Below, piece after piece: positions 6,635 through 27,997 of a DNA stretch of 34,876 bases. A program made the translations under genes and the position numbers. The notes under the pieces were generated by a model. It was not told the DNA's origin. It searched no databases and was given only the letters and a program-made list of their open reading frames with translations. Position 1 is the stretch's first letter; the number at the start of each line of letters is the position of its first letter. The stretch comes from Chloroflexota bacterium (lineage in GTDB: Bacteria > Chloroflexota > Dehalococcoidia > SZUA-161). The stretch is from NCBI GenBank assembly GCA_021787935.1, contig JAJYLC010000017.1, positions 1-34,876 of the forward strand, in the 5' to 3' direction.

Positions 6635-7483
6635 TTATTTCGCGTTTCGACGCTTTCTATATTCCTTTATATACCGTCCTGCGTATGGGTCACGGCCTAG
6701 AATGAGGTCCACAGCTAGAACAATCGAACGCACTTTTGCAACATCGACTACCAAACATGTTGCGCCTGCCGCGATAGCCGTTGCTATAAAAGCGCTATTG
6801 AGCAACTCGCGATCAGGCATGCCGAAGGATACATTACTCGCCCCCATTGTGGTGTTCACACCTAATTCATCCCTTATTCTATGAACCGTGTCCAATACGG
6901 TGAGCCCCGCCTTATTATCCGCCCCTATCGCTAAAGCGAGGCAGTCTATTATGATGTCTTCCCGATGAATGCCCAATACCTCCGCACGCTCAACTATCTT
7001 GTGGGCTATTGCAACACGCCCTCCTGAATCAGCAGCTATGCCTTTTCCGTCCTGGACAAGACCAATGACCACTGCTCCATACTGCTTCACTAGGGGGAGC
7101 ACATTTGCCAGAGATTTCTCTTCACCAGTAACCGAGTTTACCAGCGCTTTGCCCTTGTATACCTTCAGCGCAGCCTCTAGCGCCTTTATGTTGTCAGTAT
7201 CGATACACAAAGGGACATCCACGGTCTTCATAACCTGTTGAAGGACCTGAGGGAGTATTGATATCTGGTCAATGCCCATAGCGCCGACATTAACGTCGAG
7301 CATATCTGCATCTGCTGCTACCTGCCCCATAGCTTCACTCTTTATAGCTTCCATATCGCCAGTCTGAAGCGCTGCGGTTAACTTCTTTTTGCCCGTAGGA
7401 TTGATTCGCTCACCAATCAGTACAGTAGGACGCCCTACGCCAATTATTACCTCTTTTGTGCTACTCGATAGCCTGGTTTCCAT
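6635..7483 (-). CDS. Methyltetrahydrofolate:corrinoid methyltransferase (pterin-binding TIM barrel)
   Basis: A 282-residue protein resembling AcsE/MtgA and the pterin-binding module of MetH. Landmarks in order are IGERINPTGKKKL (about 23-35), DMLDVNVGAMG (about 60-70), CIDTDNIKALEAAL, ALVNSVTGEE, IDCLALAIG and ASNVSFGMPDRELLN. The Asp of DVN, the Asn of DTDN and the Asn of SNVSFG correspond to pterin-contacting residues in AcsE. It would move a methyl group between cobalamin on the corrinoid protein encoded in this operon and tetrahydrofolate, feeding the methyl branch of the Wood-Ljungdahl pathway. It is the last gene of the operon and overlaps the RACo gene by 23 bases. GGAGG lies 12 bases before ATG 7483, slightly far. 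Confidence 0.88.
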   Translation of the reverse strand: METRLSSSTKEVIIGVGRPTVLIGERINPTGKKKLTAALQTGDMEAIKSEAMGQVAADADMLDVNVGAMGIDQISILPQVLQQVMKTVDVPLCIDTDNIKALEAALKVYKGKALVNSVTGEEKSLANVLPLVKQYGAVVIGLVQDGKGIAADSGGRVAIAHKIVERAEVLGIHREDIIIDCLALAIGADNKAGLTVLDTVHRIRDELGVNTTMGASNVSFGMPDRELLNSAFIATAIAAGATCLVVDVAKVRSIVLAVDLILGRDPYAGRYIKEYRKRRNAK

Positions 7484-9332
7484 TACTAGATATTACCTCC
7501 CGTTCGCCATGAACAATTCTATATTTACCCAGATAATTAGCTTGAGCGAAGGTTCGAGTAAATTGTGGGGTCGCAGCTAACTCTATGTATTTAACACAGT
7601 CAGCTATTTCTTGTGCCTCTTTTCTTGCCGCCCTTGACGAAAGTGCCATCCTGGCACCGGTCCCGGCTGCATTCCCGATCTGTCTAAAACGATTTAATGG
7701 AATCGCCGGGAGCATGCCTAGAGTAACCGCACTTGCTACATCAATGTAAGTGCCAAAAGCTCCGGCTATCATCACCTCTTGTATTTCTTCCTCAGAACGA
7801 CCGTTTGCCTCCAATAAGATTTGAATACCCGTCCGTATTGCTCCTTTAGCAAGTTGAATCTGGCGAATATCAATCTGGGTGATTGTGATAGTCGCTCCGC
7901 CACTGCCTTCCTCGTCTACCAGAACAAACTCACTTGTTCCATCAGTGGAACGCACTCGGCGATGATTGAGATCCATCCTGCCTCTTTCATCCAACACACC
8001 GGCGAGGTATAACTGGGCAATAGCATCGATTATGGCGGACCCGCACAGACCCATTGGCCGCGCACCCCCTATGGTCTGATATTCAATCCTGTCGTCAACA
8101 ATTCGCAAATGTTCAATAGCGCCCTCGGAGGCTCTCATGCCATGTTTGATATGGGCTCCCTCGAAGGCCGGGCCTGAGGCACATGAGACACTGCTCATTA
8201 CACCATCGCAGGAAAGGCAAACCTCCGTATTGGTGCCGATATCCAGGGCTAGTACTACACCTTTTTTCTGCCGCATATTGGTTGCGAGTAACACTGCAAC
8301 GTGGTCTGCTCCCACAAAGCCTGCTATATTAGGGAGCACATGAACATATGCGCCTTGGGCAATATTAATCCCTATGCCTCGAGCCTTAATATCTTGCGCC
8401 CCTCTCACGGCCGGGACATAGGGGGAAAGGGCTAGCTGTTTTACGGGCAGGCCCAGAAAAAGGTGGTGCATAGCCGTATTGCCTACAATTACGACCTCAA
8501 CTATTTCTTCAGGCTTTGCGCCAATGGTGGTGCAAAGCTCAATTGCCAGTTGATTTAGTGCAGTCGAGGCCGACTTGTGCAATTGCTCTGTTCCTTGCTG
8601 TGATTCCATTGCATGAGCCACACGGGTAATCACATCCTCACCATAGGCTATCTGAGGATTCATGATACCTTTACTGGCCATAACCTGACCAGTGCTCAGG
8701 TTTAGCAGGTAACCTGCTATCTTCGTAGTACCAAGGTCGACTGCCAGGCCGATTTGTCGGCTCGGCCAACTGCGGAGAGCAACGATCTCGCCATCTCTCA
8801 CTGAGGCTTGCAATTGCCATTTAAAGGAACGTAGCGTTTCAGGCAGTTCTTGCAAAACTCTGAAATCGATACTAGGGTGCTCGATTCCGTGTTGCTCTCG
8901 AAGAACTCTTAGAAGGCGTTCAGTATCTGCTTCGTTATCCTGCAGGGATGGCGGGGTCATCTCAACACGATAAGGTATAACTACCGGGTCGGGGCGGATG
9001 TCTACCTGAAGCCCTTCCACCTGAGTTCTCTGAGGCGCGGTAAGGGATTCTGGCGGTACATATACCTTGCAATCTCCTGGTGGATAGGTCTGACACGCCA
9101 AACGGTACCCTGATTCTATCTGCGATGTCGAGAGAGCTTCGATTTCCGCCAGCGTCCGTTGTGACATTTCACCTTCCAGTACTCGCACCTTACAGCGGCC
9201 GCATGTGCCTTTCCCGCCACACAAACTGACCAGCTCTATACCCATTTGTTGGGCGCAGTCGCGAAGCGATTGGTCGGCCCGGCATTGCCCGCGCCGGCCT
9301 ATCGGCTCAAAGTCGACTCGATGCTCTGTCAT
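7461..9332 (-). CDS. RACo-type reductive activator of corrinoid proteins (2Fe-2S plus ASKHA ATPase, DUF4445)
   Basis: A 623-residue protein. The N-terminal ferredoxin-like domain has C38, C44, C47 and C80 in the C-x5-C-x2-C...C pattern of a plant-type 2Fe-2S cluster. After a linker comes the ASKHA ATPase part, starting with GLAVDLGTTKIAGYLL (about 196-211), then VIVGNTAMHHLFLG, ALDIGTNTEV and MIAGAFGTY, all typical of RACo/RamA-like activators. When the cobalt centre is accidentally oxidised to Co(II), these proteins use ATP to drive electron transfer and restore Co(I). Placement among methyltransferase genes fits exactly. GGAG is six bases from ATG 9332. The gene starts 13 bases after HyuA and overlaps the next gene by 23 bases. 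RamA itself is a 4Fe-4S type, so RACo is the closer model. Confidence 0.92.
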   Translation of the reverse strand: MTEHRVDFEPIGRRGQCRADQSLRDCAQQMGIELVSLCGGKGTCGRCKVRVLEGEMSQRTLAEIEALSTSQIESGYRLACQTYPPGDCKVYVPPESLTAPQRTQVEGLQVDIRPDPVVIPYRVEMTPPSLQDNEADTERLLRVLREQHGIEHPSIDFRVLQELPETLRSFKWQLQASVRDGEIVALRSWPSRQIGLAVDLGTTKIAGYLLNLSTGQVMASKGIMNPQIAYGEDVITRVAHAMESQQGTEQLHKSASTALNQLAIELCTTIGAKPEEIVEVVIVGNTAMHHLFLGLPVKQLALSPYVPAVRGAQDIKARGIGINIAQGAYVHVLPNIAGFVGADHVAVLLATNMRQKKGVVLALDIGTNTEVCLSCDGVMSSVSCASGPAFEGAHIKHGMRASEGAIEHLRIVDDRIEYQTIGGARPMGLCGSAIIDAIAQLYLAGVLDERGRMDLNHRRVRSTDGTSEFVLVDEEGSGGATITITQIDIRQIQLAKGAIRTGIQILLEANGRSEEEIQEVMIAGAFGTYIDVASAVTLGMLPAIPLNRFRQIGNAAGTGARMALSSRAARKEAQEIADCVKYIELAATPQFTRTFAQANYLGKYRIVHGEREVISSNGNQAIE

Positions 9333-9345
9333 AATTGCTCCGCTC

Positions 9346-11349
9346 TTAAACGGCTAATGGCATGCGTCCGAATGCCGTGGCGACCACTTCTGTCTCCAGA
9401 TAGATCTCCTCCAGCCATCCGCCGCCACCCTTAATAGTGCGATCATATCTCTCCATGTGCACATCTACCAAGCTGGCGCCTGCGCGACTCGCACGATCCA
9501 GGGCCAACTGACGAGATGCATCCTGTGCGCACTCCACGGCGTCTTCCAGGCGGGGGAAGTCGCGCGGTTCGGATGGCAAATGCACTCGATAGAATTTTGC
9601 CCCATTGAGTGGGCGTATTAGTATGCGCACGATTTGTACTATTTCGCCGGCCACTGCGCCAATCGCGCTGGCAACCTCTGCGTGCTCAGGGATACAGAGA
9701 TTCATGCCCAGTTTCGATGCCACTGCAGGAAGGTAGGTTGCTACCGGTGCGCCGATAGCGACCAGTGGACGCTTTATGGTGATTGCCGTGGCGAGAGTCC
9801 CTTTGTCATCAGCAGCTAACGCGCGGTCGATCAACAGTCGACCTACGTCATCCTGGCTGCTCAGGGTCAGCCCTCCTTCTTCAGCTAACGCACTGGCGAT
9901 TACCGCGCGCCCAAGCTCCTCAACAACCTGTCTGACCACGGACTCGCAAAACTGTTTTACATCAGTGTTCAATTGTGCTGCCCAGAGCGCTGCACCCAGC
10001 TCGGCAGCTTCAAGAGAGCCACATTTATATTGACCCAGGACCAAGACAGCATCTGTAGGCGTGAAAGCACTGGCTACGATTAGGCCATGCCCTATCATCT
10101 CATCTAGGAGGCGATGGTACAGGGGTGCGTACTTCACGCTGCCCAATATCTGAGCTAAAGGGACTGGTCCGTCACCGAGAGTCTCCCAAATCTCCCGCTG
10201 GATGGACGTAAGATTAGCCTGCTCAATCCCAAGAGGCCGCTGGCGCATGATGAAACGTGCTGAGTATTGGTCTACTGCACCACCGTCTGTACTAACTTTG
10301 ACCTGACGCTGTAGCACATCCATCACCGTGGGGTAATGCTGAGCCAGGCGGCTGAGAGGTATCACCTGTCTTGGGCCAACACACAATTCACCAGCTTCAT
10401 CTATTCTCACCTCGCTATCCCCACCAAGACCTGTTGTGCGGTCATCGATGGCCTCAACCATGGTCTGCCAGCCACCAACCCAGGCTCCGTTAAGGTTCAG
10501 TGCTGGTCGACCATCGCGCAAAGCTGCGATGTCTGTAGTGGTGCCTCCCATGTCAATAACGAAGGCGCTGTCCACATTGGCGAGATAGCGTGCGCCTATA
10601 ACGCTGGCAGCAGGGCCTGATAAGATAGTCTCCACCGGTCGCTCTAGTGCCATCTTAGCACTGATGAGGGAGCCATCCCCCTTGACTACCATAAGTGGCG
10701 CATGGATGCCTATGTCGGTGAGCGTGTTCTGAACTGCAACAATCAATTGCTGCAGTAGGGGGATGAGCCGGGCATTGAGGGCAGCAGTTAGAGCACGGCG
10801 TGGCGCATGAAGTTGGGTACTCAGTTCATGTCCACATGTTACTGGCAGCCCAGTGATTTCGCGGATCATTCGCTGTACCTGCAGTTCGTGTCTTGGGTTA
10901 CGCACTCCGAAATACCCTGAGATGGCGAATGCAGCTACGCGAGATTTATGAGCTAGGATGGCTTGCCTGGCCCGATCTATATCGAGAGGCGCCTCCTCCT
11001 CACCATTTGGTTTGTGTCCGCCCTGGATGAACACGATGTCTTCGTGGTTCAGTATCCTCTCTAAACCAGCATCGTTCAGCATGTACGGATCGTAGCCGAT
11101 GAGGATTAAGCAGATTGAACTGCCTTGTCCCTCAACAACAGCGTTGGTGGCTAACGTAGTGGATAGGGATACTGCACTGATTTCCAGAGGCGGGTCTGGC
11201 AGGAGAGCTTCTAGTGCTCCTCGGATTCCTAGAGATAGGTCAAATTTCGTGGTCAGAGCCTTGGCCTTGCCTAGAACGCGGTGTTTGTCATCCAACAAAA
11301 CAGCATCCGTGTAGGTGCCTCCAGTATCGATGCCTAAGAGGATAGAAAT
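9346..11349 (-). CDS. HyuA-like hydantoinase/oxoprolinase-family ASKHA protein, predicted ATT start
   Basis: A 667-residue protein if begun at ATT 11349-11347. Its first residues read (M)SILLGIDTGGTYTDAVL, containing the DTGGTYTD phosphate-binding loop essential for this ATPase fold. A second ASKHA loop is VIDMGGTTTDIAAL. The family includes the A subunits of hydantoinases, 5-oxoprolinases and acetone carboxylases, which use ATP to activate a carbonyl or carboxylate. No HyuB partner is present, so hydrolytic hydantoinase activity is doubtful. Similar stand-alone proteins near corrinoid methyltransferases may be activators, which is inference. No ATG, GTG or TTG exists between the upstream in-frame stop (11392-11394) and ATG 11298, which would delete the loop. 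It lies 35 bases after the MetH-activation-like gene. Confidence 0.8.
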   Translation of the reverse strand: MSILLGIDTGGTYTDAVLLDDKHRVLGKAKALTTKFDLSLGIRGALEALLPDPPLEISAVSLSTTLATNAVVEGQGSSICLILIGYDPYMLNDAGLERILNHEDIVFIQGGHKPNGEEEAPLDIDRARQAILAHKSRVAAFAISGYFGVRNPRHELQVQRMIREITGLPVTCGHELSTQLHAPRRALTAALNARLIPLLQQLIVAVQNTLTDIGIHAPLMVVKGDGSLISAKMALERPVETILSGPAASVIGARYLANVDSAFVIDMGGTTTDIAALRDGRPALNLNGAWVGGWQTMVEAIDDRTTGLGGDSEVRIDEAGELCVGPRQVIPLSRLAQHYPTVMDVLQRQVKVSTDGGAVDQYSARFIMRQRPLGIEQANLTSIQREIWETLGDGPVPLAQILGSVKYAPLYHRLLDEMIGHGLIVASAFTPTDAVLVLGQYKCGSLEAAELGAALWAAQLNTDVKQFCESVVRQVVEELGRAVIASALAEEGGLTLSSQDDVGRLLIDRALAADDKGTLATAITIKRPLVAIGAPVATYLPAVASKLGMNLCIPEHAEVASAIGAVAGEIVQIVRILIRPLNGAKFYRVHLPSEPRDFPRLEDAVECAQDASRQLALDRASRAGASLVDVHMERYDRTIKGGGGWLEEIYLETEVVATAFGRMPLAV

Positions 11350-11357
11350 AGTGCTTT

Positions 11358-11364
11358 CTCCTTT
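11358..11364 (-). promoter_or_regulatory. Ribosome-binding site that fixes the HyuA start at an ATT codon
   Basis: On the minus strand AAAGGAG is followed by the eight bases AAAGCACT and then ATT (11349-11347). Spacing and strength are ideal, and no conventional start codon is in reach. Either ATT initiates (as in infC) or an ATG has been misread or mutated at its third base. Confidence 0.6.
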
Positions 11365-11384
11365 TTCCCCTATATTAATCTTGC

Positions 11385-12053
11385 CTAATGTCTAAACTGG
11401 CAGGTGTTTCGAAGTCTGCATAAATGGCAGGTCGAGCCTATGTGTTTAGCCGCATAGTCTGGTCCAATGCCGACAAGTCCGGCTCCGGATTTCTGGGGTG
11501 ATAGGATTCCGGCGTCGGTTATGGCCACACCTATCGCACTCAGGTCCAAGAGCGCACACAACGTTCTTTGTTCGTTTATTGTCCATCCGGGTAGTGACCC
11601 CGGTGATAGGGCCGGGCTAATGCCCCAGCCCCGGCGGACTGCCTCTTCTTCGACTACGCAACGTAATGGCTCACCTGAGACACCTAAAGCGATGACTCCT
11701 GCCGTGTCGAGAAGGTAGCCCTCGAACAGCCTCCCTTCAGCCAGCAGTGTCTGTACTCGTTCTTCCAACGCCGAGCCAATGGTGCAGACGCTTACTAATG
11801 CCTCACGAGCGGGGGCGAGCAGATCAGCATGTGGCCCCAGATGGAGGAGCGCATCCCCAACTTTAAACCTCTCGCTATCTAGCGCCTGGACGGTGAACCA
11901 TTCGTAGACTATGGCCGAGAAAACCAGACGTTGGGCTTCATCTATGGCCCAACGAGCGAGTTCATTGACTTTAGGCCGTTCAGCCGCCTGTCCCAGGAAG
12001 TGCAATAAATCGTCTAAAGACAGGGCGGGATGAAGATTAGCGATCACTGGCAT
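11385..12053 (-). CDS. Stand-alone MetH activation-domain-like protein (Met_synt_B12 type)
   Basis: A 222-residue protein resembling the C-terminal S-adenosylmethionine-binding reactivation domain of cobalamin-dependent methionine synthase, found alone. Family-like segments are VSVCTIGSALEERV (about 87-100), GYLLDTAGVIALG (about 112-124) and RRGWGISPALSPGSLPGW (about 140-157), which resembles the SxRxSPGYP-type SAM-binding loop. The tail has a cysteine group, CHLCRLRNTC, absent from MetH, which could bind a metal or cluster. In MetH this domain re-methylates oxidised cobalamin using SAM. Here it may act on the operon's corrinoid protein, either with or instead of RACo. The fold assignment is moderately secure; the partner is inferred. 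Confidence 0.7.
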   Translation of the reverse strand: MPVIANLHPALSLDDLLHFLGQAAERPKVNELARWAIDEAQRLVFSAIVYEWFTVQALDSERFKVGDALLHLGPHADLLAPAREALVSVCTIGSALEERVQTLLAEGRLFEGYLLDTAGVIALGVSGEPLRCVVEEEAVRRGWGISPALSPGSLPGWTINEQRTLCALLDLSAIGVAITDAGILSPQKSGAGLVGIGPDYAAKHIGSTCHLCRLRNTCQFRH

Positions 12054-12121
12054 TCACATTTCTCTCTTGGCGCCTTGCATTATAACTGGAGCCGTACTTT
12101 GGGTTTAGGCCTGATAGCAAA

Positions 12122-12502
12122 CTATCCCGGCCCCTCCCTCATGACATGTCTTTCGAGCTCTTCACGGATTGCTCTCTCTACACTTGCTTGCTGAACCCCA
12201 TAGACGATGACATTAATCGTCAACTTCGCCTTTGAAATCTCTTGAGACAGCTCCCCTTTATATGAAGCCTTCTCTTCGAAAGCGGTAACGCTGAAAAAGA
12301 GGTGCTTGTTTCCTTCAACTTCCAAAAGCCCCTTGATGTGGCCAATCAGTTTGCAGCCATCACCTTGAAGGGAGGAGGTTAGCGCTGACATAAAAGCATC
12401 TATCCTGCCATGTAGTTCATCGGCCGACAGGGGAACTTTAAACGCCAGACCCACTTCCTGGGCACAGACCGTTGGATGCAACTCATGCCCTGCATGGCTC
12501 AT
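12122..12502 (-). CDS. Conserved-looking 126-residue protein of unknown function in the methyltransferase operon
   Basis: I do not recognise this protein. It starts MSHAGHELHPTVCAQEVGL, giving an N-terminal His/Cys patch (H3, H6, H9, C13) that could bind a metal. The rest alternates helices and strands: a helix around ADELHGRIDAFMSALTSSL, then a strand-rich middle (GCKLIGHIKGLLEV, HLFFSVTAF), then a strand INVIVYGV and a terminal amphipathic helix (ASVERAIREELERHV). There is no signal peptide. Its ATG overlaps the stop of the CobW-like GTPase (ATGA at 12502-12499), so the pair is translationally coupled. The His/Cys start next to a G3E GTPase suggests a metal- or cofactor-delivery role, which is only inference. 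Confidence 0.75.
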   Translation of the reverse strand: MSHAGHELHPTVCAQEVGLAFKVPLSADELHGRIDAFMSALTSSLQGDGCKLIGHIKGLLEVEGNKHLFFSVTAFEEKASYKGELSQEISKAKLTINVIVYGVQQASVERAIREELERHVMREGPG

Positions 12503-13098
12503 TGTAGCTCCCCTACCAGGTTCTTCACAAGAGGTTCCAGATTAATCTTCTTCTCCACCGAAATGGCCGCTACTTTGGCCCGGGGATTCAACTGATTAAC
12601 ATCTTTGCGAATGAGGTCGATATCTGTTACATCTACCTTATCGATCTTATTGATGACCACTATATCCGCTAACTGGATCTGGGTTGTAATCAACGGTGTT
12701 AACATCTCATACAACATTTTATAGCGGGTGGCATCGACAAGTACCACCAACTTAATGTCTGTGACTATAGGCTGACAACTCCGCACAGTAGTTAACACAT
12801 CGCCCGGCGAAGCCAAACCCGTGGGCTCGATAATGGTCACGGCTGGCTTAAAGAGATCTTCAACCTTTTGCAACATAGAAACGAGGTCGGCAGACAGTGT
12901 ACAGCAAATACAACCGCCGAAGAGCTCCTGGACTTGTAGTCCTTGCTCGCGGAGATACTTGCCGTCGATCCCTATCTCCCCAACCTCGTTTTCAATTATT
13001 GCTATCTTCTGCGGAACAGCTACCAGCCTCCGGGCAACTTCCAACAGAAGCGTTGTCTTGCCTGAACCCAGAAAGCCGGCGATGATTAGCAACTTCAT
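12499..13098 (-). CDS. CobW/HypB/UreG-like G3E GTPase, short form
   Basis: A 199-residue P-loop GTPase. Walker A is GFLGSGKTTLL (about 8-18), followed by IIENEVGEIGID, the zinc-binding GGCICCT motif (C63, C65, C66), EPTG near residue 91 and the guanine-specificity motif NKID near residue 150. These define the COG0523/CobW branch of metallochaperones, which load Zn, Co or other metals into client enzymes. It lacks the CobW C-terminal domain found in proteins of 300 or more residues. Its ATG overlaps the URO-D gene's stop (ATGA, 13098-13095), and its own stop overlaps the 126-residue orphan. Loading zinc into the methyltransferase or assisting cobalamin insertion are reasonable guesses. Confidence 0.88.
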   Translation of the reverse strand: MKLLIIAGFLGSGKTTLLLEVARRLVAVPQKIAIIENEVGEIGIDGKYLREQGLQVQELFGGCICCTLSADLVSMLQKVEDLFKPAVTIIEPTGLASPGDVLTTVRSCQPIVTDIKLVVLVDATRYKMLYEMLTPLITTQIQLADIVVINKIDKVDVTDIDLIRKDVNQLNPRAKVAAISVEKKINLEPLVKNLVGELQ

Positions 13099-14261
13099 CG
13101 TTTCTTAGATGGTGTGTAATTCTTAGCGGTTTGGCACAATGCTCTCCAGTTATCTAGTTTGACAGCAGTGGGCATCTCACAGCCGGTGCTAAGTATGAAA
13201 CCACCATCACCGCCGATTTCATCGATCAGCTTTTTGCAGTAGGCTTCCACATCCTTTGGTTTGCCCAGGCACGTCAAAGAGGAAGGTACGTCGCCGGCAA
13301 GGCACAAGTGATTTCGCAACACCTCTTTTGCGGCAAAGATATTGGTGGTGCCATCCAGAGCAAGTATCGCTGACCCGCGAGGCAGTTTCTTAAAGTAGGA
13401 AATATTCTTGTCCCAGCACTGGTCCAGGTGGAACCAGGTGACGATACCCTCGGACCACGCGGCGTCCACTATTTCCTGTGTGTAAGGCCACCAGAAGCGC
13501 TCGAAGATATGCAGAGGGAACATTGCTCCCTCGGCTCGCTCCTCGGAGGTGAAATACATCTTCGCGCCCCAGGCCTTGCAATTTGTAATTATTTGCTCGA
13601 TGTACTCACGGGTCGCTGTCTTCAGGGCCCTCTCCACCGGCGCTGGGTGGTAGTACAGGTCTTCTATGAATTTCAACATGGAGCGGGCCATGGCGAACCT
13701 GAAGAATGGATGCATGGAGTGTGCCAAGGCAGGACTCAAGAAATAAACTCCTCGTTCCTTCCATCTGTCAATTGTACTGATGAAGCCCGCTGCCGCCTTC
13801 ATCTTGGCTTCGTTTAGTTGTTCTAGTGTTGCGTCTACGAGGCGGAATTGGTAATCCTCATCAACAAACCGTTGCCAACCTATCTCGGCAACGGTATCGT
13901 AGTCTTCCCGTTTCATAACCTCTTGCTCAAGCACCTGGGCTGTATAGTTTTCCGGCAAGTCCATACCTGGGAATTTCATCTTTACGCCCATGGTAATAGA
14001 TGAGATCTGCGCTAGAGAACGATCTCCCCCTGTGGCGATAGACGCCAAATCCATGTCCCAGCCCCCGGTATAATCCCACACCTTATCGATGGAGGCCTGT
14101 TGTTGTTCTGAAGTCATATTGAAGTACCAGTCCGCCACCGTCCAACCGGTGGCCTGCGCATAAGCTGTTGTGGCCAGGATATCGACAGGAACATGGTCCG
14201 GCTTCTCCAGGGAGGCTGCGGCCCATACCCTTTCTTCGTGGGTCATGATTTCTTTAGACAT
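13095..14261 (-). CDS. URO-D-family substrate:corrinoid methyltransferase
   Basis: A 388-residue TIM-barrel protein of the uroporphyrinogen-decarboxylase superfamily, in the branch used as methyltransferase I in methanol, methylamine and O-demethylase systems (MtaA/MtbA and MtvB-like). Likely zinc ligands are in WFHLDQCWD (about 260-268) and STGCEMP near residue 356, i.e. an H-x3-C...C pattern rather than the H-x-C of MtaA. True HemE lacks these cysteines and would not sit in a corrinoid operon. It would transfer a methyl group from an unknown donor onto the corrinoid protein encoded directly upstream. Methoxylated aromatics are one option. ATG 14261 is preferred over 14291: AGGAGG precedes it by nine bases and it shares one base with the upstream stop (TAATG). 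Confidence 0.85.
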   Translation of the reverse strand: MSKEIMTHEERVWAAASLEKPDHVPVDILATTAYAQATGWTVADWYFNMTSEQQQASIDKVWDYTGGWDMDLASIATGGDRSLAQISSITMGVKMKFPGMDLPENYTAQVLEQEVMKREDYDTVAEIGWQRFVDEDYQFRLVDATLEQLNEAKMKAAAGFISTIDRWKERGVYFLSPALAHSMHPFFRFAMARSMLKFIEDLYYHPAPVERALKTATREYIEQIITNCKAWGAKMYFTSEERAEGAMFPLHIFERFWWPYTQEIVDAAWSEGIVTWFHLDQCWDKNISYFKKLPRGSAILALDGTTNIFAAKEVLRNHLCLAGDVPSSLTCLGKPKDVEAYCKKLIDEIGGDGGFILSTGCEMPTAVKLDNWRALCQTAKNYTPSKKR

Positions 14262-14896
14262 TATCGCTTCCCTCCTATCGATTTCATGCAATATGTGACA
14301 CCTTCCATTGCGTCAGTGGTAAAGAAATCGGCGCCAATGTATTTCTTGACCATCTCACTCGCTATGCCACCTCCAACCATAAGCTTGAATTGTTTCCTCA
14401 GTCCAGCCTCCTCAAGCATCTCTGAGGCTTCCTTCATGGCATCAAAGCCGCTACTGATCAGCACTGAGAAGCCAACAAAATCAGGCTTTACCTCCTTGAC
14501 CTTCTGTACTACAACGGCTGGGTCCACATCTACGCCCAGGTCGTGTACCTCGAAGCCCTGGGCCTTGACCAGGGCGGCAAACAGGTTCTTCCCCAGATCA
14601 TGGATATCGCCCCGTAAAGTACCGATTACCATCTTGCCCAACGGTTTAGGCGGGCGTACCTTAGCCAACTGAGGTTCGAGAATGGCGGTCACCTCCTTGA
14701 GAATCTCGGCGGACAGCATTAGTTCAGCCAGAAAGTATTCGCCTTTTTGAAACCGTTCGCCTACGATGACCATGCCCTGGCGGCACTCTTCCAGGATTTG
14801 AAGTGGGCTTTCGCCTTTCTTAGACCGGCTTTTGACCAGGTTCAGTGCCTTATCCCTGTCGAGCTCTACGATGGCGAGCGCCAGTTCTCCGGACAT
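14261..14896 (-). CDS. Methyltransferase corrinoid protein (B12-binding, MtbC/MttC-like)
   Basis: A 211-residue protein of standard length for the family. Residues 1-85 form the helical cap domain (LQILEECRQGMVIVGERFQKGEYFLAELM region). The Rossmann-like B12 domain follows, with GDIHDLGKN at 96-104, where H99 would be the lower axial ligand to cobalt (DxHxxG motif). Later GFSVLISS and VGGG contact the corrin tail. It shuttles methyl groups as methyl-Co(III) between the URO-D enzyme and the THF methyltransferase, and is the target of the RACo activator. It is the first gene of the operon, with AAGGAGG six bases before ATG 14896. The preceding 164 bases are AT-rich and presumably contain the promoter, though no clean -35/-10 pair stands out. 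Confidence 0.93.
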   Translation of the reverse strand: MSGELALAIVELDRDKALNLVKSRSKKGESPLQILEECRQGMVIVGERFQKGEYFLAELMLSAEILKEVTAILEPQLAKVRPPKPLGKMVIGTLRGDIHDLGKNLFAALVKAQGFEVHDLGVDVDPAVVVQKVKEVKPDFVGFSVLISSGFDAMKEASEMLEEAGLRKQFKLMVGGGIASEMVKKYIGADFFTTDAMEGVTYCMKSIGGKR

Positions 14897-15060: not shown

Positions 15061-16188
15061 TTACTTGGTGGATAAGAGGTAGGTCCTGAGATTGGCTTTT
15101 TTATTCTTTATTCTGAACTTGTCTCTAACATTGCTGCGGTGACGATCGATTGTTTTTGTCGATAAATTCAACACTTCCGCTATTTCTTTAGTAGTTTTGC
15201 CCTGCTTAACAAGATTAGCCACCTGAAGCTCCGCAGGCGTAAGGTTTGAAAGTCTGGAGTATGATCTTTCTGCGAACGGGGAGATAATATCATCCAGGTT
15301 TGACTCCATGATACTTAAAAAGGTCTGAACTTTTTGATCGCTCGCAATCTTCTTCGCTTGTTCCAGGTAAGGCCTGACCAACTGTTTTATACTAAAGAGT
15401 ACCCCTTCCTCAAATTTTGCTTGGTCTTCCTCTCTCATTTTCAACAAGGTTCTTAGCGCGGTATTTACCTCTTCAAGCTTGATCTTGCTGGCCTCTAATT
15501 CCGCCTTCTGTTTTGCTAGCATTTCCTCTTTTTTCTTTTGGTCAGTTACGTCTATAGTAATAATGCCAAGTTCATCGCCTATTTTGAAAACCTTAGCCTT
15601 CCAGCGCTGTTCTCCGAACATAGAAGGAGCACTTTGGTCATCGGTACTAACAGAGACGCCAGTCTTTAACACATCTAAAAGATTTTTTATTTCTCTCCGC
15701 TTTAGTTCGGGTACTATTTCAACGATGTTCTTCCCTAGCATGTCCTCTTTTCGGGTCCCGGGCGGATAAAGCTTAATCGTTGCGTCATTAACGGCAATCA
15801 AATTGAGTTTTGCATCAAAAATGGAAAACGATTCAGTCGCCGACTTTGTGAAAGCAACCCACCTTCTTTCAAATAGTCTCTCGTCAATTATCTCTTGACC
15901 AATTCCCATATTAATGAGTTTCCCTGCTCCCTCATTTGTCGGTTCCTTTTTATTCGATTTCAGGTTACGAGGCATTATTATCCCTGCTATGCATTCGGCG
16001 CGAATCCTGGCAGCCTTCGCAGCGGTCATGCTATCCTGAAACTGGCGACCGGCCTTTTCCTCGATTTGCTTTCCATCTTTACGATAGACGATATAATATA
16101 TTTTCTCTCTTTTTAGGGATCCAGCCGTCTTTCTCTGAATATAGTAAACACCGGGATATTTCGTTCTATTTCGCGTCAAAGCAGGCAT
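15061..16188 (-). CDS. Transcriptional regulator: integrase Arm-type domain + PAS + LuxR-type HTH
   Basis: A protein of about 375 residues with an unusual domain order. Residues 1 to about 75 (TKYPGVYYIQRKTAG, IYYIVYRKDGKQIEEKAGRQ, then a helix MTAAKAARIRAECIAG) look like the AP2-like Arm DNA-binding domain at the N terminus of tyrosine integrases. A PAS domain follows (about 105-220; ESFSIFDAKLNLIAVNDA, GIITIDVTDQ), then a coiled coil (about 220-262) and a C-terminal LuxR/GerE HTH (LTPAELQVANLVKQGKTTKE, LSTKTIDRHRSNV). No integrase catalytic domain is present. It lies upstream of the corrinoid operon on the same strand, so it may regulate it in response to a PAS ligand. ATG 16188 is chosen over ATG 16194 because GGAGG is nine bases before it and only three before the other. 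Confidence 0.82.
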   Translation of the reverse strand: MPALTRNRTKYPGVYYIQRKTAGSLKREKIYYIVYRKDGKQIEEKAGRQFQDSMTAAKAARIRAECIAGIIMPRNLKSNKKEPTNEGAGKLINMGIGQEIIDERLFERRWVAFTKSATESFSIFDAKLNLIAVNDATIKLYPPGTRKEDMLGKNIVEIVPELKRREIKNLLDVLKTGVSVSTDDQSAPSMFGEQRWKAKVFKIGDELGIITIDVTDQKKKEEMLAKQKAELEASKIKLEEVNTALRTLLKMREEDQAKFEEGVLFSIKQLVRPYLEQAKKIASDQKVQTFLSIMESNLDDIISPFAERSYSRLSNLTPAELQVANLVKQGKTTKEIAEVLNLSTKTIDRHRSNVRDKFRIKNKKANLRTYLLSTK

Positions 16189-16654
16189 CGTCATTTTCCT
16201 CCGATTAATATTGCTGGGTAATTTGCTGGGTTTTGCAGTAAACTAAACACCAGAGGCTTAGAACCGTATTGATACTCCCAGTATTTTACCCAGTCTCTTC
16301 TAAAAATACAAGACACCCGGTGGAAGCTAACTGAAGAAGGACATCGCGTAGGCTAATGGGAATGATAGAAGTCCCTGTTTGGAAAACCGTGGGTCTCCAG
16401 TGTGCCCCGTTTTGAAGCTGTAACTACCAATAGGCTTCTTTGACACCCTGTTCATACCCAAGCATATCCGGTCAGGTAAAGCTTGGGTTATGATTGAACA
16501 ATCCGCTATAAAGTGCAGTTAGAACCTATTATCCAATTGTCAAACATTTCTCTAGGGTGAAGCCTAATCAGGCCCGGTTCATGAGTAGTCCGGCCTTGGC
16601 TTCAGGAGTCGCCGGTTAGATCGCAGCGTCATCGGTCCTAACAGGTCCACTACA
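16189..16654. other. 466-base intergenic region between lipoprotein and regulator genes
   Basis: No gene is recognisable. It holds the paired 17-base motif described separately (16214-16293). It also holds a nested inverted repeat with outer arms GAAGCC (16559-16564) and GGCTTC (16598-16603) and inner arms GGCCCGG (16571-16577) and CCGGCC (16590-16595). The latter is about 50 bases past the lipoprotein stop and may be an mRNA-end structure, but it lacks a T run. Confidence 0.5.
16214..16293. promoter_or_regulatory. Paired inverted 17-base motif upstream of the Arm-PAS-LuxR gene
   Basis: CTGGGTAATTTGCTGGG (16214-16230) and CCCAGTATTTTACCCAG (16277-16293) are inverted copies of CTGGGTAA-NNNN-CTGGG. 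Each copy is itself a direct repeat of CTGGG at 12-base spacing. The nearer copy is only 26 bases upstream of the predicted start codon. Direct repeats of short sites are what integrase Arm domains bind, so an autoregulatory operator for the adjacent protein is an attractive inference. Confidence 0.5.
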
Positions 16655-19801: not shown

Positions 19802-20953
19802 ATGGAAGCGATGAAGCGACTTACTGACCATTTAGCCACCAGACTGACCGAGTTGACCCGTTTGCGCAAGAATGGGGCTAAACTCATCGGATATGCCCCT
19901 GGCGGCTATATGCCGGAGGAGCTGGTTTATGCTTCCGGCGCTGTGCCTGTCGGGCTTATCCGAGGGGGAGATCCGGAGCCGGTGGCTGAAAGCGCCGCAT
20001 ATGTCCCTCGATTCATAGACACATTCTGCAGGTCTCAGATTGGGTATAGAATGATGGGTGGCGACCCTCTCTATGAAATAATCGACCTTCTCGTCGTCCC
20101 TGTTACCGACCATAACATCAAGACTATTGCTGACTGCTTTAACTTTTTCACTAATACCAACGTTTTCAGGTTTGGAGTACCTCACCAGAAGGATGAACAC
20201 GCTTTCGGGTATTATCTTGCAGGGCTGCATGCGTTTAAGGATAAGCTGGAGGAGTTTACCGGCAATAAGATTGATGATGGGAGACTGAAGGAAGCGATCG
20301 CTCTGTGCAATAAAATGAGGGAGCTGCTGAAGGAAATAAGCCTCCTGCGCAAGTCTGAGCCGCCACCAATAACAGGCTACGATTTCGTGAAATTGAATCA
20401 TGCTTCGTTTATTGCCGATAAGCGAATCTTCATCGATATACTGGAGTCGATTCATAATGAGTTGAGAAGGAAACCTTCGCCAGGACAGAAAGGACCAAGG
20501 ATACTTTTGACAGGCTCGACCCTGGCTATGGGCGATTACAAGGTCCTGGAAACAACAGAGAACGTCGGAGCAAGAATAGTTGTTGAAGAATTCGCAGAGG
20601 GGATGAGGCACTACTGGCAAAACGTTCATGTCAACGGAGACCTAATGCAGGCTTTAGCCGATAGATACTTCAGGCGAAGGGAGCCCCCAGCCTGGTTCAG
20701 ACCATCTAGGGAAAGGCTGGATTATCTGATACAGCTGGCCAGGGATTTCAAAGTAGATGGCATTATCTGGTACCAACTCATGTACCGGAGTAGCTACGAT
20801 ATTCAGGCATTCTATTTCGAGAAGATGCTGAGAAAGGAACTCGATATACCGATGCTGAAGCTTGAATCAGACTACGATGTTTCTGAGAGGGGCCCTCTCA
20901 GGACAAGGATTGAGACCTTTGTCGAAATCATCAAGGCGAAGGGGGGCAGATAG
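19802..20953 (+). CDS. 2-hydroxyacyl-CoA dehydratase / benzoyl-CoA reductase-type subunit (HgdB-like), subunit 1
   Basis: A 383-residue member of the BcrB/BcrC-HgdA/HgdB superfamily. The start region GYAPGGYMPEELVYASGAVPVGL matches the conserved first motif, except that the position usually held by a cluster-binding Cys before the P-x-E-L stretch is not Cys here. C74 or so (DTFCRSQIG) and C117 or so (IADCFNFF) remain as possible ligands. The C-terminal LRTRIETFVE matches the conserved (Q/P)LRTRxExFxE end. With the next gene it would form a heterodimer carrying a 4Fe-4S cluster that removes water from a 2-hydroxyacyl-CoA by a ketyl radical, or a related double-cubane protein. AGAGG is nine bases before ATG 19802; ATG 19811 is an alternative. 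The substrate is unknown. Confidence 0.85.
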   Translation: MEAMKRLTDHLATRLTELTRLRKNGAKLIGYAPGGYMPEELVYASGAVPVGLIRGGDPEPVAESAAYVPRFIDTFCRSQIGYRMMGGDPLYEIIDLLVVPVTDHNIKTIADCFNFFTNTNVFRFGVPHQKDEHAFGYYLAGLHAFKDKLEEFTGNKIDDGRLKEAIALCNKMRELLKEISLLRKSEPPPITGYDFVKLNHASFIADKRIFIDILESIHNELRRKPSPGQKGPRILLTGSTLAMGDYKVLETTENVGARIVVEEFAEGMRHYWQNVHVNGDLMQALADRYFRRREPPAWFRPSRERLDYLIQLARDFKVDGIIWYQLMYRSSYDIQAFYFEKMLRKELDIPMLKLESDYDVSERGPLRTRIETFVEIIKAKGGR

Positions 20954-20954
20954 T

Positions 20955-22349
20955 ATGTACACTGAGCTTCTCAAACTGTGTAGCTTTGAAACAGATGAGA
21001 TTAATAGGGAAAGGCCCAGAATTGACAAAGCGTTCAAAATCCTCGGGTTAGAAGAGGAGGACATTAAGCGGGGCGAGCAGAGGTTGAAGCGGTATCTGGA
21101 CATTGAGTTGCTGGGAGTACGTAGATTCCTCGGGATATGGATGAGGGAGCTCGTCAATCTCGTGCTGGCAAGAGAAGAGCACGAAAAAATAATTTACAGC
21201 GATTTCCCCATGGAACTCCGTCCATTAATGTCCATGATGCTGTCAACCGACGCGAAGAAGGCGTATTTCGCTACTCCCGGGCAAATAATCAACATGACCA
21301 TGGGTCAGATCTTCGACAAACTCACCCCCTTTCTCGTGGCAGGTGAGGAGAACGGAATGCCGCCCGGAGCCGCCCACTGCGCTCTATATCAGACCCGGCT
21401 GGGGGCGATGGTGAAGGGTGTAATCCCCTTTCCTGATTTGTCAGTGATAGCATCGTATCATTGCGACCAGCCAGCAGAGGCGGAGCAATTGCTGCATGAG
21501 GTCTATGGCGTCCCAGTAGCATATCTTGATAGCTGTCCTGACGCGAATTGGGGCGATTGGCCCAAATTCAACGACTACCGTGTTCGCTACTGCGGGTCAC
21601 AGGCGCGCAAGCTCTTTCAGATGTTCGAGGATGTAGTCGGCTGTAAGATGACGGAAGAGGCCAAACGCACCGCCAATAAGGCTAATGCGATATTCCGTCT
21701 CAAGTTCCAGCAGTTGATCGAACTTATGGGACATGCGGACCCCCAGCCCATACATCAGACAAGCCTGGTGCACGCCTTTTTTCTGAATTCCATGCCGACA
21801 AGGGACATTGCAGGGAAGCAGGAGGCGCTGGAGATACTGTGTGGTGAGGTGGAGGAGAGAATTAACCAGGGCAAGGGGGTAGTGCCGAAGGGAGCCCCGG
21901 GCGTCTTCATTACCGCTACGATAAGTGTCGACCCCGGCATAACGCACATGATAGAGGAGACAGGCCTGGCCATCCGTATTCAAATACCGTTTTGGCTCAG
22001 CCCGTGGGTAATGGCCAGACATCCCTACAGGGATTGGGCGGACATGATAGGTGTAGGGCCGTGCCTGGACGTACCGCACTCCTGTCAAGCACATGTTGCT
22101 ATCAACTTAGAGAACTGCAAGGCTTTCAACGTGGATGGGGCAATCGATTTCTACCCCTACTCTTGTCGTGAATGGGTTCCTACTGTCATGATAACCAAAA
22201 AGACGCTGGAGAGAGAGTTGGGTATACCCGTGCTGGTTCTGGAAGGTGACTGCTATGACACCCGGAACTACAGCGCCGGACAGCTAAGGACGCGGGTCGA
22301 AACATTTGCGGAACTGCTGAGGGCTGCCAAAGCCGCCAAAGCGGCATAA
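20955..22349 (+). CDS. 2-hydroxyacyl-CoA dehydratase-type subunit (HgdB-like), subunit 2
   Basis: A 464-residue paralogue of the preceding gene, begun at ATG 20955, one base after that gene's stop codon. An upstream ATG in frame (20862) would overlap subunit 1 by 90 bases and is less likely. Family features include GMPPGAAHCALYQTRLG, IASYHCDQPAEAEQLL, VAYLDSCPD and the end segment LEGDCYDTRNYSAGQLRTR, close to the E-x-D...QLRTRxExF pattern. Several cysteines (HC, HCDQ, SCPD, GDCYD) could hold a 4Fe-4S cluster, compensating for the cysteine-poor partner. The tail AAKAAKAA is low complexity. Transcribed with the activase that follows after five bases. Confidence 0.85.
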   Translation: MYTELLKLCSFETDEINRERPRIDKAFKILGLEEEDIKRGEQRLKRYLDIELLGVRRFLGIWMRELVNLVLAREEHEKIIYSDFPMELRPLMSMMLSTDAKKAYFATPGQIINMTMGQIFDKLTPFLVAGEENGMPPGAAHCALYQTRLGAMVKGVIPFPDLSVIASYHCDQPAEAEQLLHEVYGVPVAYLDSCPDANWGDWPKFNDYRVRYCGSQARKLFQMFEDVVGCKMTEEAKRTANKANAIFRLKFQQLIELMGHADPQPIHQTSLVHAFFLNSMPTRDIAGKQEALEILCGEVEERINQGKGVVPKGAPGVFITATISVDPGITHMIEETGLAIRIQIPFWLSPWVMARHPYRDWADMIGVGPCLDVPHSCQAHVAINLENCKAFNVDGAIDFYPYSCREWVPTVMITKKTLERELGIPVLVLEGDCYDTRNYSAGQLRTRVETFAELLRAAKAAKAA

Positions 22350-22354
22350 GGGAA

Positions 22355-23143
22355 ATGACGAAGACCATTACTGCGGGAGTTGATATTGGAGCAGCCACTG
22401 CCAAGACAGTCATCATGGCAGATGGCAAGATTCTCTCCTATGCTGTGATACCAACAGGCGACAGTGTCGCTCGGGCAGCAGAAAAAGTAACAAGGTCGGC
22501 TTTGGAACAGGTTGCTCTCTCCATGTCTGACCTCGGCTTCGTCATCTCCACAGGTTATGGAAGGAATGGTGTCGCTTTTGCTAACAAAGCGGTAACTGAA
22601 ATTATCTGCCATGCCAAAGGAGTGAACTTTTTAATTCCGGCAGCCAGAACTGTCATTGATATAGGTGGTCAGGATAGCAAAGTTATCGGAGTCCGCGAAG
22701 ATGGCACAGTGCGCGATTTTGTCATGAATGATAAGTGCGCCGCTGGGACGGGTAGATTCCTGGAAGTCATGGCCGGAGTCCTGGGCCTCGCCATCGAGGA
22801 AATGGGACCAATATCCCTGACTAGCAAGGAGCCCTGTTCTGTAAGCAGCACCTGCACCATATTTGCTGAAACGGAGATGGTCTCACTGCGTGCCGATGGG
22901 AGAACTAGGGAGGATTTGGTCGCCGGGATTCATCGGGCTGTGGCTACAAGGGTGGCGGTTATGGGAAGAACTGTAGGCTACAGGGAACAGGTTGTATTTA
23001 CCGGAGGCGTCGCCAAGAACGTAGGGGTCAAGAATGCTCTAGAAGCTGGAATCGGGCTTCCCATCATGATTCCAGAAGAGCCTCAGATCATCGGGGCACT
23101 CGGAGCAGCACTCATCGCCAATGGCGCATTACGTGTAACATGA
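22355..23143 (+). CDS. ATP-dependent activase of 2-hydroxyacyl-CoA dehydratase (HgdC/BadF-BcrA family)
   Basis: A 262-residue ASKHA ATPase of normal length for HgdC. It begins TAGVDIGAATAKTVIM (phosphate loop), followed by IDIGGQDSKVI (about 101-111). Cysteines C128 (NDKCAAGTGRFLEV) and C167 (SVSSTCTIFAETEM) correspond to the pair that holds the 4Fe-4S cluster at the homodimer interface. The second phosphate loop is VFTGGVAKNVGVK. The activase injects one electron into the dehydratase with ATP hydrolysis; the electron then recycles for many turnovers. It starts five bases after subunit 2, so the three genes form an operon. Extreme oxygen sensitivity is a known trait of this family and supports an anaerobic host. 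Confidence 0.93.
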   Translation: MTKTITAGVDIGAATAKTVIMADGKILSYAVIPTGDSVARAAEKVTRSALEQVALSMSDLGFVISTGYGRNGVAFANKAVTEIICHAKGVNFLIPAARTVIDIGGQDSKVIGVREDGTVRDFVMNDKCAAGTGRFLEVMAGVLGLAIEEMGPISLTSKEPCSVSSTCTIFAETEMVSLRADGRTREDLVAGIHRAVATRVAVMGRTVGYREQVVFTGGVAKNVGVKNALEAGIGLPIMIPEEPQIIGALGAALIANGALRVT

Positions 23144-27652: not shown

Positions 27653-27997
27653 ATGAAGGTGTGTTTAGATAACTCGGTGATCGGGCGTCTCATGGATATC
27701 AAGATGGGTATCGATCTGAAGAGCCTTCTTCAAGAGGCTAATATCACTGAAAGTAGGGCTTTCCTTCGGTCATTTATCAAGCGAATCGAAATAAATAACA
27801 GGCAAGCTGTAATTCATTACAATCTGCCTGTACCTCTCTATCGGGGCGAGAATAAATTGTACTGGAACGAAAAGCAATCGGCAGGGGTTCTGCCTACCGT
27901 ACGTTATGGTGGAGATAGGGGGATTCGAACCCCCGACCTCTGCGATGCGAACGCAGCGCTCTCCCAGTTGAGCTATATCCCCCTATTTATCTCTTAA
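27653..27997 (+). pseudogene. C-terminal remnant of a large serine recombinase, running into tRNA-Ala
   Basis: The open frame has 114 codons, whereas large serine recombinases have about 450-550 residues. From about residue 25 the sequence LKSLLQEANITESRAFLRSF, then IKRIEINNRQAVIHYNLPVP, matches the conserved tail of these enzymes (the SFxRSFVKxIE...Y-x-LP-P pattern). The catalytic N-terminal domain and recombinase domain are missing. The first 25 codons do not fit the family, so the break is near 27720. From 27907 on the frame is simply the antisense of tRNA-Ala(CGC), which the recombinase frame reads through. This looks like the residue of an element that inserted at the tRNA 3' end and was mostly deleted. 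Confidence 0.7.
27907..27982 (-). tRNA. tRNA-Ala (anticodon CGC), CCA encoded
   Basis: On the minus strand the acceptor stem GGGGATA pairs with TATCTCC (one G-T pair), followed by discriminator A and encoded CCA (27909-27907). The D stem is GCTC/GAGC, the anticodon stem CTGCG/CGCAG encloses the loop TTCGCAT with anticodon CGC, and the T arm is GGGGG-TTCGAAT-CCCCC. Length is 73 plus CCA. CGC reads the alanine codon GCG. A promoter with perfect TTGACA lies upstream (28044-28072). The cloverleaf is complete, so the gene should work despite the recombinase scar at its 3' end. Confidence 0.95.

Follow-up and report, generated by a model that had tools for sequence, protein, structure and literature searches.

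P4/HPI-type tyrosine integrases carry an arm-type (AP2-like) DNA-binding domain at their N-terminus (PDB 3rmp, 3jtz and 3ju0). KplE1 IntS acts as a repressor of its own gene, in whose promoter an arm site overlies the -10 box (PMC2951348). PAS-LuxR one-component regulators of Desulfobacterota and related bacteria combine a PAS domain, a coiled coil, a conserved spacer and a GerE helix-turn-helix (HTH), and are often located beside a catabolic operon. The reuse of DNA-binding modules for regulation is known among host proteins that arose through mobile-element capture, including animal transposase capture, the TnpB-derived TldR and regulators derived from mobile genetic elements (MGEs). The bacterial MGE-derived regulators reviewed in the portion of PMC8987985 considered here are of the Xre, RHH and antitoxin types, unlike an integrase-arm/LuxR fusion.

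Within the window, that is, the whole 34.9-kb stretch of Chloroflexota DNA that was analysed, a gene at 15061..16188 (minus strand) encodes a protein that resembles the PAS-LuxR one-component regulators but bears an extra, putatively DNA-binding head at its N-terminus. This head is similar to the P4/HPI-type arms in predicted fold and in position, and its close relatives are true integrases with upstream tandem repeats; unlike those arms, it is joined to a sensor-regulator without core-binding or catalytic domain. As in KplE1 intS, though here only as candidates, arm-type sites lie in the putative promoter of the gene itself, one of them over a possible -10 box, but the product is a regulator and not a recombinase. 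No description of an integrase arm fused to a LuxR protein was found in the open-access literature searched. The fusion suggests a bacterial counterpart to animal transposase capture, in which mobile-element DNA-binding modules serve as heads of environmental sensors. We also describe an arm-domain subfamily that is missing from Pfam and propose a DNA target for it.

Domain organization and nature of the N-terminus

The gene was delimited by ORF scanning, domain matches and its ribosome-binding site. The ORF covers 15061-16194 of the minus strand and encodes 377 aa, and the ATG at 16188 is a likelier start than the alternative at 16194, because the GGAGG ribosome-binding site (16202-16198, minus strand) is spaced 9 nt from the former and 3 nt from the latter and because homologues start at the same Met. 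The predicted protein comprises, all on the minus strand, an arm-type (AP2-like) integrase DNA-binding domain (residues 3-74; 15973..16188), an unconserved linker (residues 75-108; 15871..15972), a PAS sensor domain (residues 109-226; 15517..15870), a long helix in the structure model that is probably a coiled coil (residues 217-283; 15346..15546), and a LuxR/GerE HTH (residues 317-366; 15097..15246). The HTH is recognized by Pfam (E 9.6e-14, 51.2 bits against a gathering cut-off of 23.5) and the PAS domain by the NCBIfam model TIGR00229, sensory_box (25.6 bits against a cut-off of 22.9, E 1e-5), the Pfam PAS models remaining below cut-off; the PAS fold was poorly modelled, and pTM was 0.29. 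The catalytic domain PF00589 (Phage_integrase) was absent from the regulator in a Pfam search and present in two arm-bearing relatives (L030 and L060), which agrees with the preliminary description of a PAS sensor and a LuxR/GerE HTH without a recombinase catalytic part. Among the fusions, identity amounts to 51-65% in the arm, 45-67% in the HTH, 22-46% in the PAS domain and 3-18% in the linker, so that the arm is conserved to the same degree as the HTH. Synonymous changes between near-identical pairs of fusions were too few for a selection test based on dN/dS.

Sequence comparison and modelling show that residues 3-74 form a true DNA-binding domain of the arm type found in tyrosine integrases. 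The window arm is about 50-70% identical to integrase arms; tblastn aligned it with a Lawsonia plasmid integrase (49% over 63 aa, E 6e-9), and two integrases on IMG/VR contigs share 62% and 61% identity with it. A scan of 84,980 genomes for the arm returned 28 loci, mostly in Desulfobacterota, the majority of which are full tyrosine recombinases. Profile libraries leave the matter undecided, as residues 1-92 had no significant match in Pfam, NCBIfam or PHROG and none of 29 arms of the same subfamily, integrase arms included, had a significant match in Pfam (0/29). The subfamily is without a Pfam model, and the negative profile result is therefore uninformative about arm identity, since true integrase arms fail likewise. 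A profile search of PDB sequences gave no convincing match, and searches of viral contigs with single sequences gave none.

The structure model of the arm, built on 29 alignment rows, contains three strands (16-22, 29-39 and 42-50) and a helix (58-70). Foldseek ranked 3rmp first (E 0.08), 3jtz second (E 0.33) and 3ju0 tenth, E-values that are weak when taken alone; all three are integrase arm domains. VIA Z-scores were 6.0 for 3rmp, 5.8 for 3ju0 and 5.6 for 3jtz, an AP2 domain also reaching 5.6. The preliminary description had likened the N-terminal ~75 residues to an integrase Arm domain, for which it expected a three-strand-plus-helix fold. Of this, the likeness is upheld by the tblastn homology to integrases, by the arm tree given below and by the closest structural matches, and the fold by the model, while the profile similarity of residues 1-80 that it named as a check did not appear, for a reason that has no bearing on the identity of the domain.

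Tandem repeats upstream of integrase and regulator genes

The upstream regions of arm-integrase genes contain a 12-bp tandem repeat, with the consensus TGTTGGGTATAG occurring twice, generally at a distance of 30-120 bp from the start. Of 74 such regions, 55 match at 10 of 12 positions with period 12; shuffled sequences give 0.25, and none of the other periods tested was matched in more than 10 regions. A second copy of the repeat is often located 220-247 bp further upstream in unchanged orientation. These repeats are probable arm-type sites, given the excess at period 12 and the second upstream copy, which is reminiscent of P and P' arms.

Two related sites precede the window regulator. The proximal tandem site, TGCTGGGTAATTTGCTGGGTTTTG, lies at 16212..16235 (plus strand; -47 to -24 of the gene) and the distal one, GACTGGGTAAAATACTGGGAGTAT, at 16272..16295 (minus strand; -107 to -84) in the opposite orientation. 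The distal site includes TAAAAT (16283-16288), a possible -10 box with a weak TTGTAT (16306-16311) 17 nt ahead of it; a promoter scan of the region called no sigma-70 promoter. With a matrix made from 14 integrase sites and no regulator data, the top score in the whole window fell at 16212-16235 (15.8 bits), which was equalled in 0 of 40 Markov windows. The best double site of the 34.9 kb is likewise the regulator promoter, its weaker member scoring 12.0 against 5.9 for the runner-up and a maximum of 9.6 over 60 Markov windows. A broader matrix of 59 sites is less specific for single sites, the two window sites ranking third and fifth rather than first. The sequence CTGGGTANNNNNCTGGG has two occurrences in the 2.68-Mb genome, both in the regulator promoter; it was drawn from the promoter sites, and this is therefore evidence of uniqueness, not of discovery. 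The claim that one protein holds two different DNA-binding domains thus gains, besides homology, a candidate target DNA for the arm.

In most arm regulators, related sites are present near -50 and -108 relative to the regulator gene, and arm-less PAS-LuxR paralogues are without them. Within 150 bp upstream, integrases had a median site score of 22.5 (leave-one-out) and arm regulators scored 3.9-16.6 (median 10.2), against a median of 0.3 for 56 arm-less PAS-LuxR genes, whose starts are approximate. The arm regulators exceed these 56 controls at a one-sided p of 8e-7, a value that overstates independence because some arm regulators are related. Among the individual genes, L040, L078 and L080 have one site near -50 and another around -110 to -116, with the same 19-bp core in both sites of L040 and TGAGGGGAA in both sites of L078. 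L081 has a weaker, poorly fitting version of this layout, L197 a clear distal site with an inverted GGGG/CCCC element in place of the proximal one, and L035 the distal site only; no clear site was found upstream of L034, where part of the region is masked.

Distribution of the fusion and exchange of N-terminal heads

The arm-PAS-LuxR order recurs beyond the window in seven genes from four genomes of Desulfobacterota, among dozens of true integrases, and by eye these regulators also adjoin catabolic-looking operons. Three of the genes are in TRIP AH-1 (L034/L077, L080 and L081), two in UBA5623 (L035/L073 and L078, near copies of two TRIP AH-1 genes), one in CSMAG_2842 (L040, with two PAS domains) and one in genome G978 (L197), which is the closest relative of the window regulator (arm 65%, HTH 67%). 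The sample is small, the window regulator and seven genes of which two are near copies, and their promoters may share descent. The remaining classified arm matches were integrases or fragments (85 genomes of the TRIP AH-1 class and 395 of the phylum). Among the kin of the window genome (147 relatives and 400 phylum genomes sampled), the window genome alone carries the arm. The simplest reading is that the regulator gene was gained horizontally from a Desulfobacterota-like donor, with which its low GC (0.41 against about 0.51) is consistent.

In the arm tree, seven distinct regulator arms group as a single branch nested among those of integrases (92/84; recovered in 94% of bootstraps), a support that is only moderate because the alignment is short. 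In the tree of LuxR halves, a single clade of arm regulators was rejected (AU p 0.009); here the arm-bearing L136 is sister to L140, with a ribbon-helix-helix-like head, and the arm-bearing L153 to L151, with a recombinase-core head. Since the arms form one branch and the LuxR halves do not form one clade, the arm head was apparently acquired in a single capture and later moved among paralogues. Sister paralogues in the PAS-LuxR family have other heads. An IS1634-transposase N-terminus is present in L191, L247 and L248 (44-57% identity over about 61 residues to plasmid relatives, most of them annotated as IS1634 transposases). A tyrosine-recombinase core is found in L207, L209, L210, L215 and L240; PF00589 matches with E 5.6e-13 in L147 (the L210 gene) and 8e-8 in L151 (the L209 gene), and the position of the first catalytic Arg varies (R/Q/M/K). 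A ribbon-helix-helix-like N-terminus was recognized by eye in L140 and L217, that of L140 having no match in Pfam. It can be speculated, somewhat short of an even chance in our view, that the integrase arm, the IS1634 N-terminus, the recombinase core and the ribbon-helix-helix are DNA-binding heads of mobile-element origin that act as interchangeable plug-ins in a large PAS-LuxR family and move between paralogues and lineages, each accompanied by its own operator DNA; if so, each new regulator would receive a private autoregulatory circuit.

Several further features were observed in these genomes. The single genome G978 encodes some 20 PAS-LuxR paralogues, whose N-termini vary (arm, IS1634, recombinase core and receiver). 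In L129 (G503:C4), an arm-PAS-LuxR regulator (7994-9220, minus strand) is the divergent neighbour of an integrase (9820-10989, plus strand) whose arm belongs to the same subfamily. Four copies of TGTAGGCAT lie within 180 bp upstream of L191 (L258, 7794-9047), and L207 and L240 have an upstream palindrome in common, TTAACTTT...AAAGTTAA. At L049 (5004-5372), an arm is fused to a fragment that resembles a receiver domain, with an in-frame stop, either a decayed gene or an assembly fault, and this locus (L049/L071) was left out of the fusion count.

Proposed autoregulation and competing explanations

We consider it probable that the protein is a sensor-regulator which controls its own promoter via the captured arm and whose LuxR HTH probably activates the neighbouring corrinoid-methyltransferase operon. 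Autoregulation is the first reading suggested by a pair of sites spaced about 60 bp at its own promoter. The arm would bind the 12-bp tandem repeats and, by occupying the distal site, over the possible -10 box, together with the proximal one, in the leader, would shut the regulator gene off, a negative autoregulation of the kind integrases exert at attL; given the KplE1 IntS precedent and the possible -10 box in the distal site, repression of its own promoter is the most likely role of the arm. A PAS ligand may alter dimerization or release through the coiled coil, whereupon the LuxR HTH would activate the operon. The arm head probably came from an integrase gene along with its operator, and bacteria thus appear to have turned an integrase's grip, as well as its landing site, into a self-control device. 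The target DNA of the arm can likely be read from integrase attachment regions, and a single domain of the protein with a single 24-bp oligonucleotide would therefore suffice to test the prediction.

The repeats might instead be bound by the LuxR HTH or another host factor, the arm being a passive or dimerizing relic. LuxR proteins often autoregulate, repeats at their own promoter are common for LuxR genes, and the C-terminal halves of these regulators are related; yet the same repeats precede integrases that have no LuxR domain, the 56 arm-less PAS-LuxR genes score at background, and the conservation of the arm equals that of the HTH, all of which makes this reading unlikely. We give still less credence to the idea that the repeats are a leftover of joint capture of an integrase promoter and arm and no longer matter. 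The regulator sites do lie at offsets like those of the proximal integrase sites, but they differ between regulators while the pair within one promoter stays alike (L040 and L078), and the second site near -108 has been retained.

It is about equally improbable that the 12-bp repeats are sites of a recombination directionality factor (RDF, excisionase) and not of the arm. Such sites can be direct repeats spaced one helical turn (PMC7498355), but the sole part common to integrases and arm regulators is the arm, and no RDF was identified adjoining the window gene. An assembly artefact, whether a chimeric gene or a contaminant contig, could be suspected from the GC of the gene and from the lack of the arm in the remaining sampled genomes of relatives and of the phylum, but it has hardly any probability: PurF encoded on that contig shares 94% identity with that of a same-genus genome, a kinship by which contamination of the contig was ruled out, the architecture recurs in independent assemblies, and the low GC fits horizontal transfer.

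The adjacent operon (minus strand) begins with a corrinoid (B12-binding) protein (14264..14896) and a UroD-type methyltransferase (13098..14291), followed by the remaining corrinoid methyltransferase cluster (6638..13098) with a CobW GTPase, two genes without clear domains, a hydantoinase-type protein, a RACo-type activator and a pterin-binding methyltransferase. Control of this operon by the regulator, as suggested in the preliminary description, is plausible from position only; no arm sites or repeats were found in the ~165-bp gap between the two. The DNA looping also suggested there, with the arm at the regulator's own promoter and the HTH at that of the operon, would be compatible with autoregulation and would suit a protein with two DNA-binding heads, a predicted long helix between them and an operon start about 1.3 kb from the arm sites. 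No HTH site was identified, and we regard such a loop as rather doubtful, if somewhat less so than binding of the repeats by the HTH.

Elsewhere in the window, a short ORF at 27653-27997 that by eye resembles the end of a serine recombinase, with no match in Pfam, overlaps an opposite-strand tRNA-Ala (27907-27982). A 2-hydroxyacyl-CoA dehydratase-type cluster with two HGD-D proteins and a BadF/BcrA-type ATPase is located at 19802-23140.
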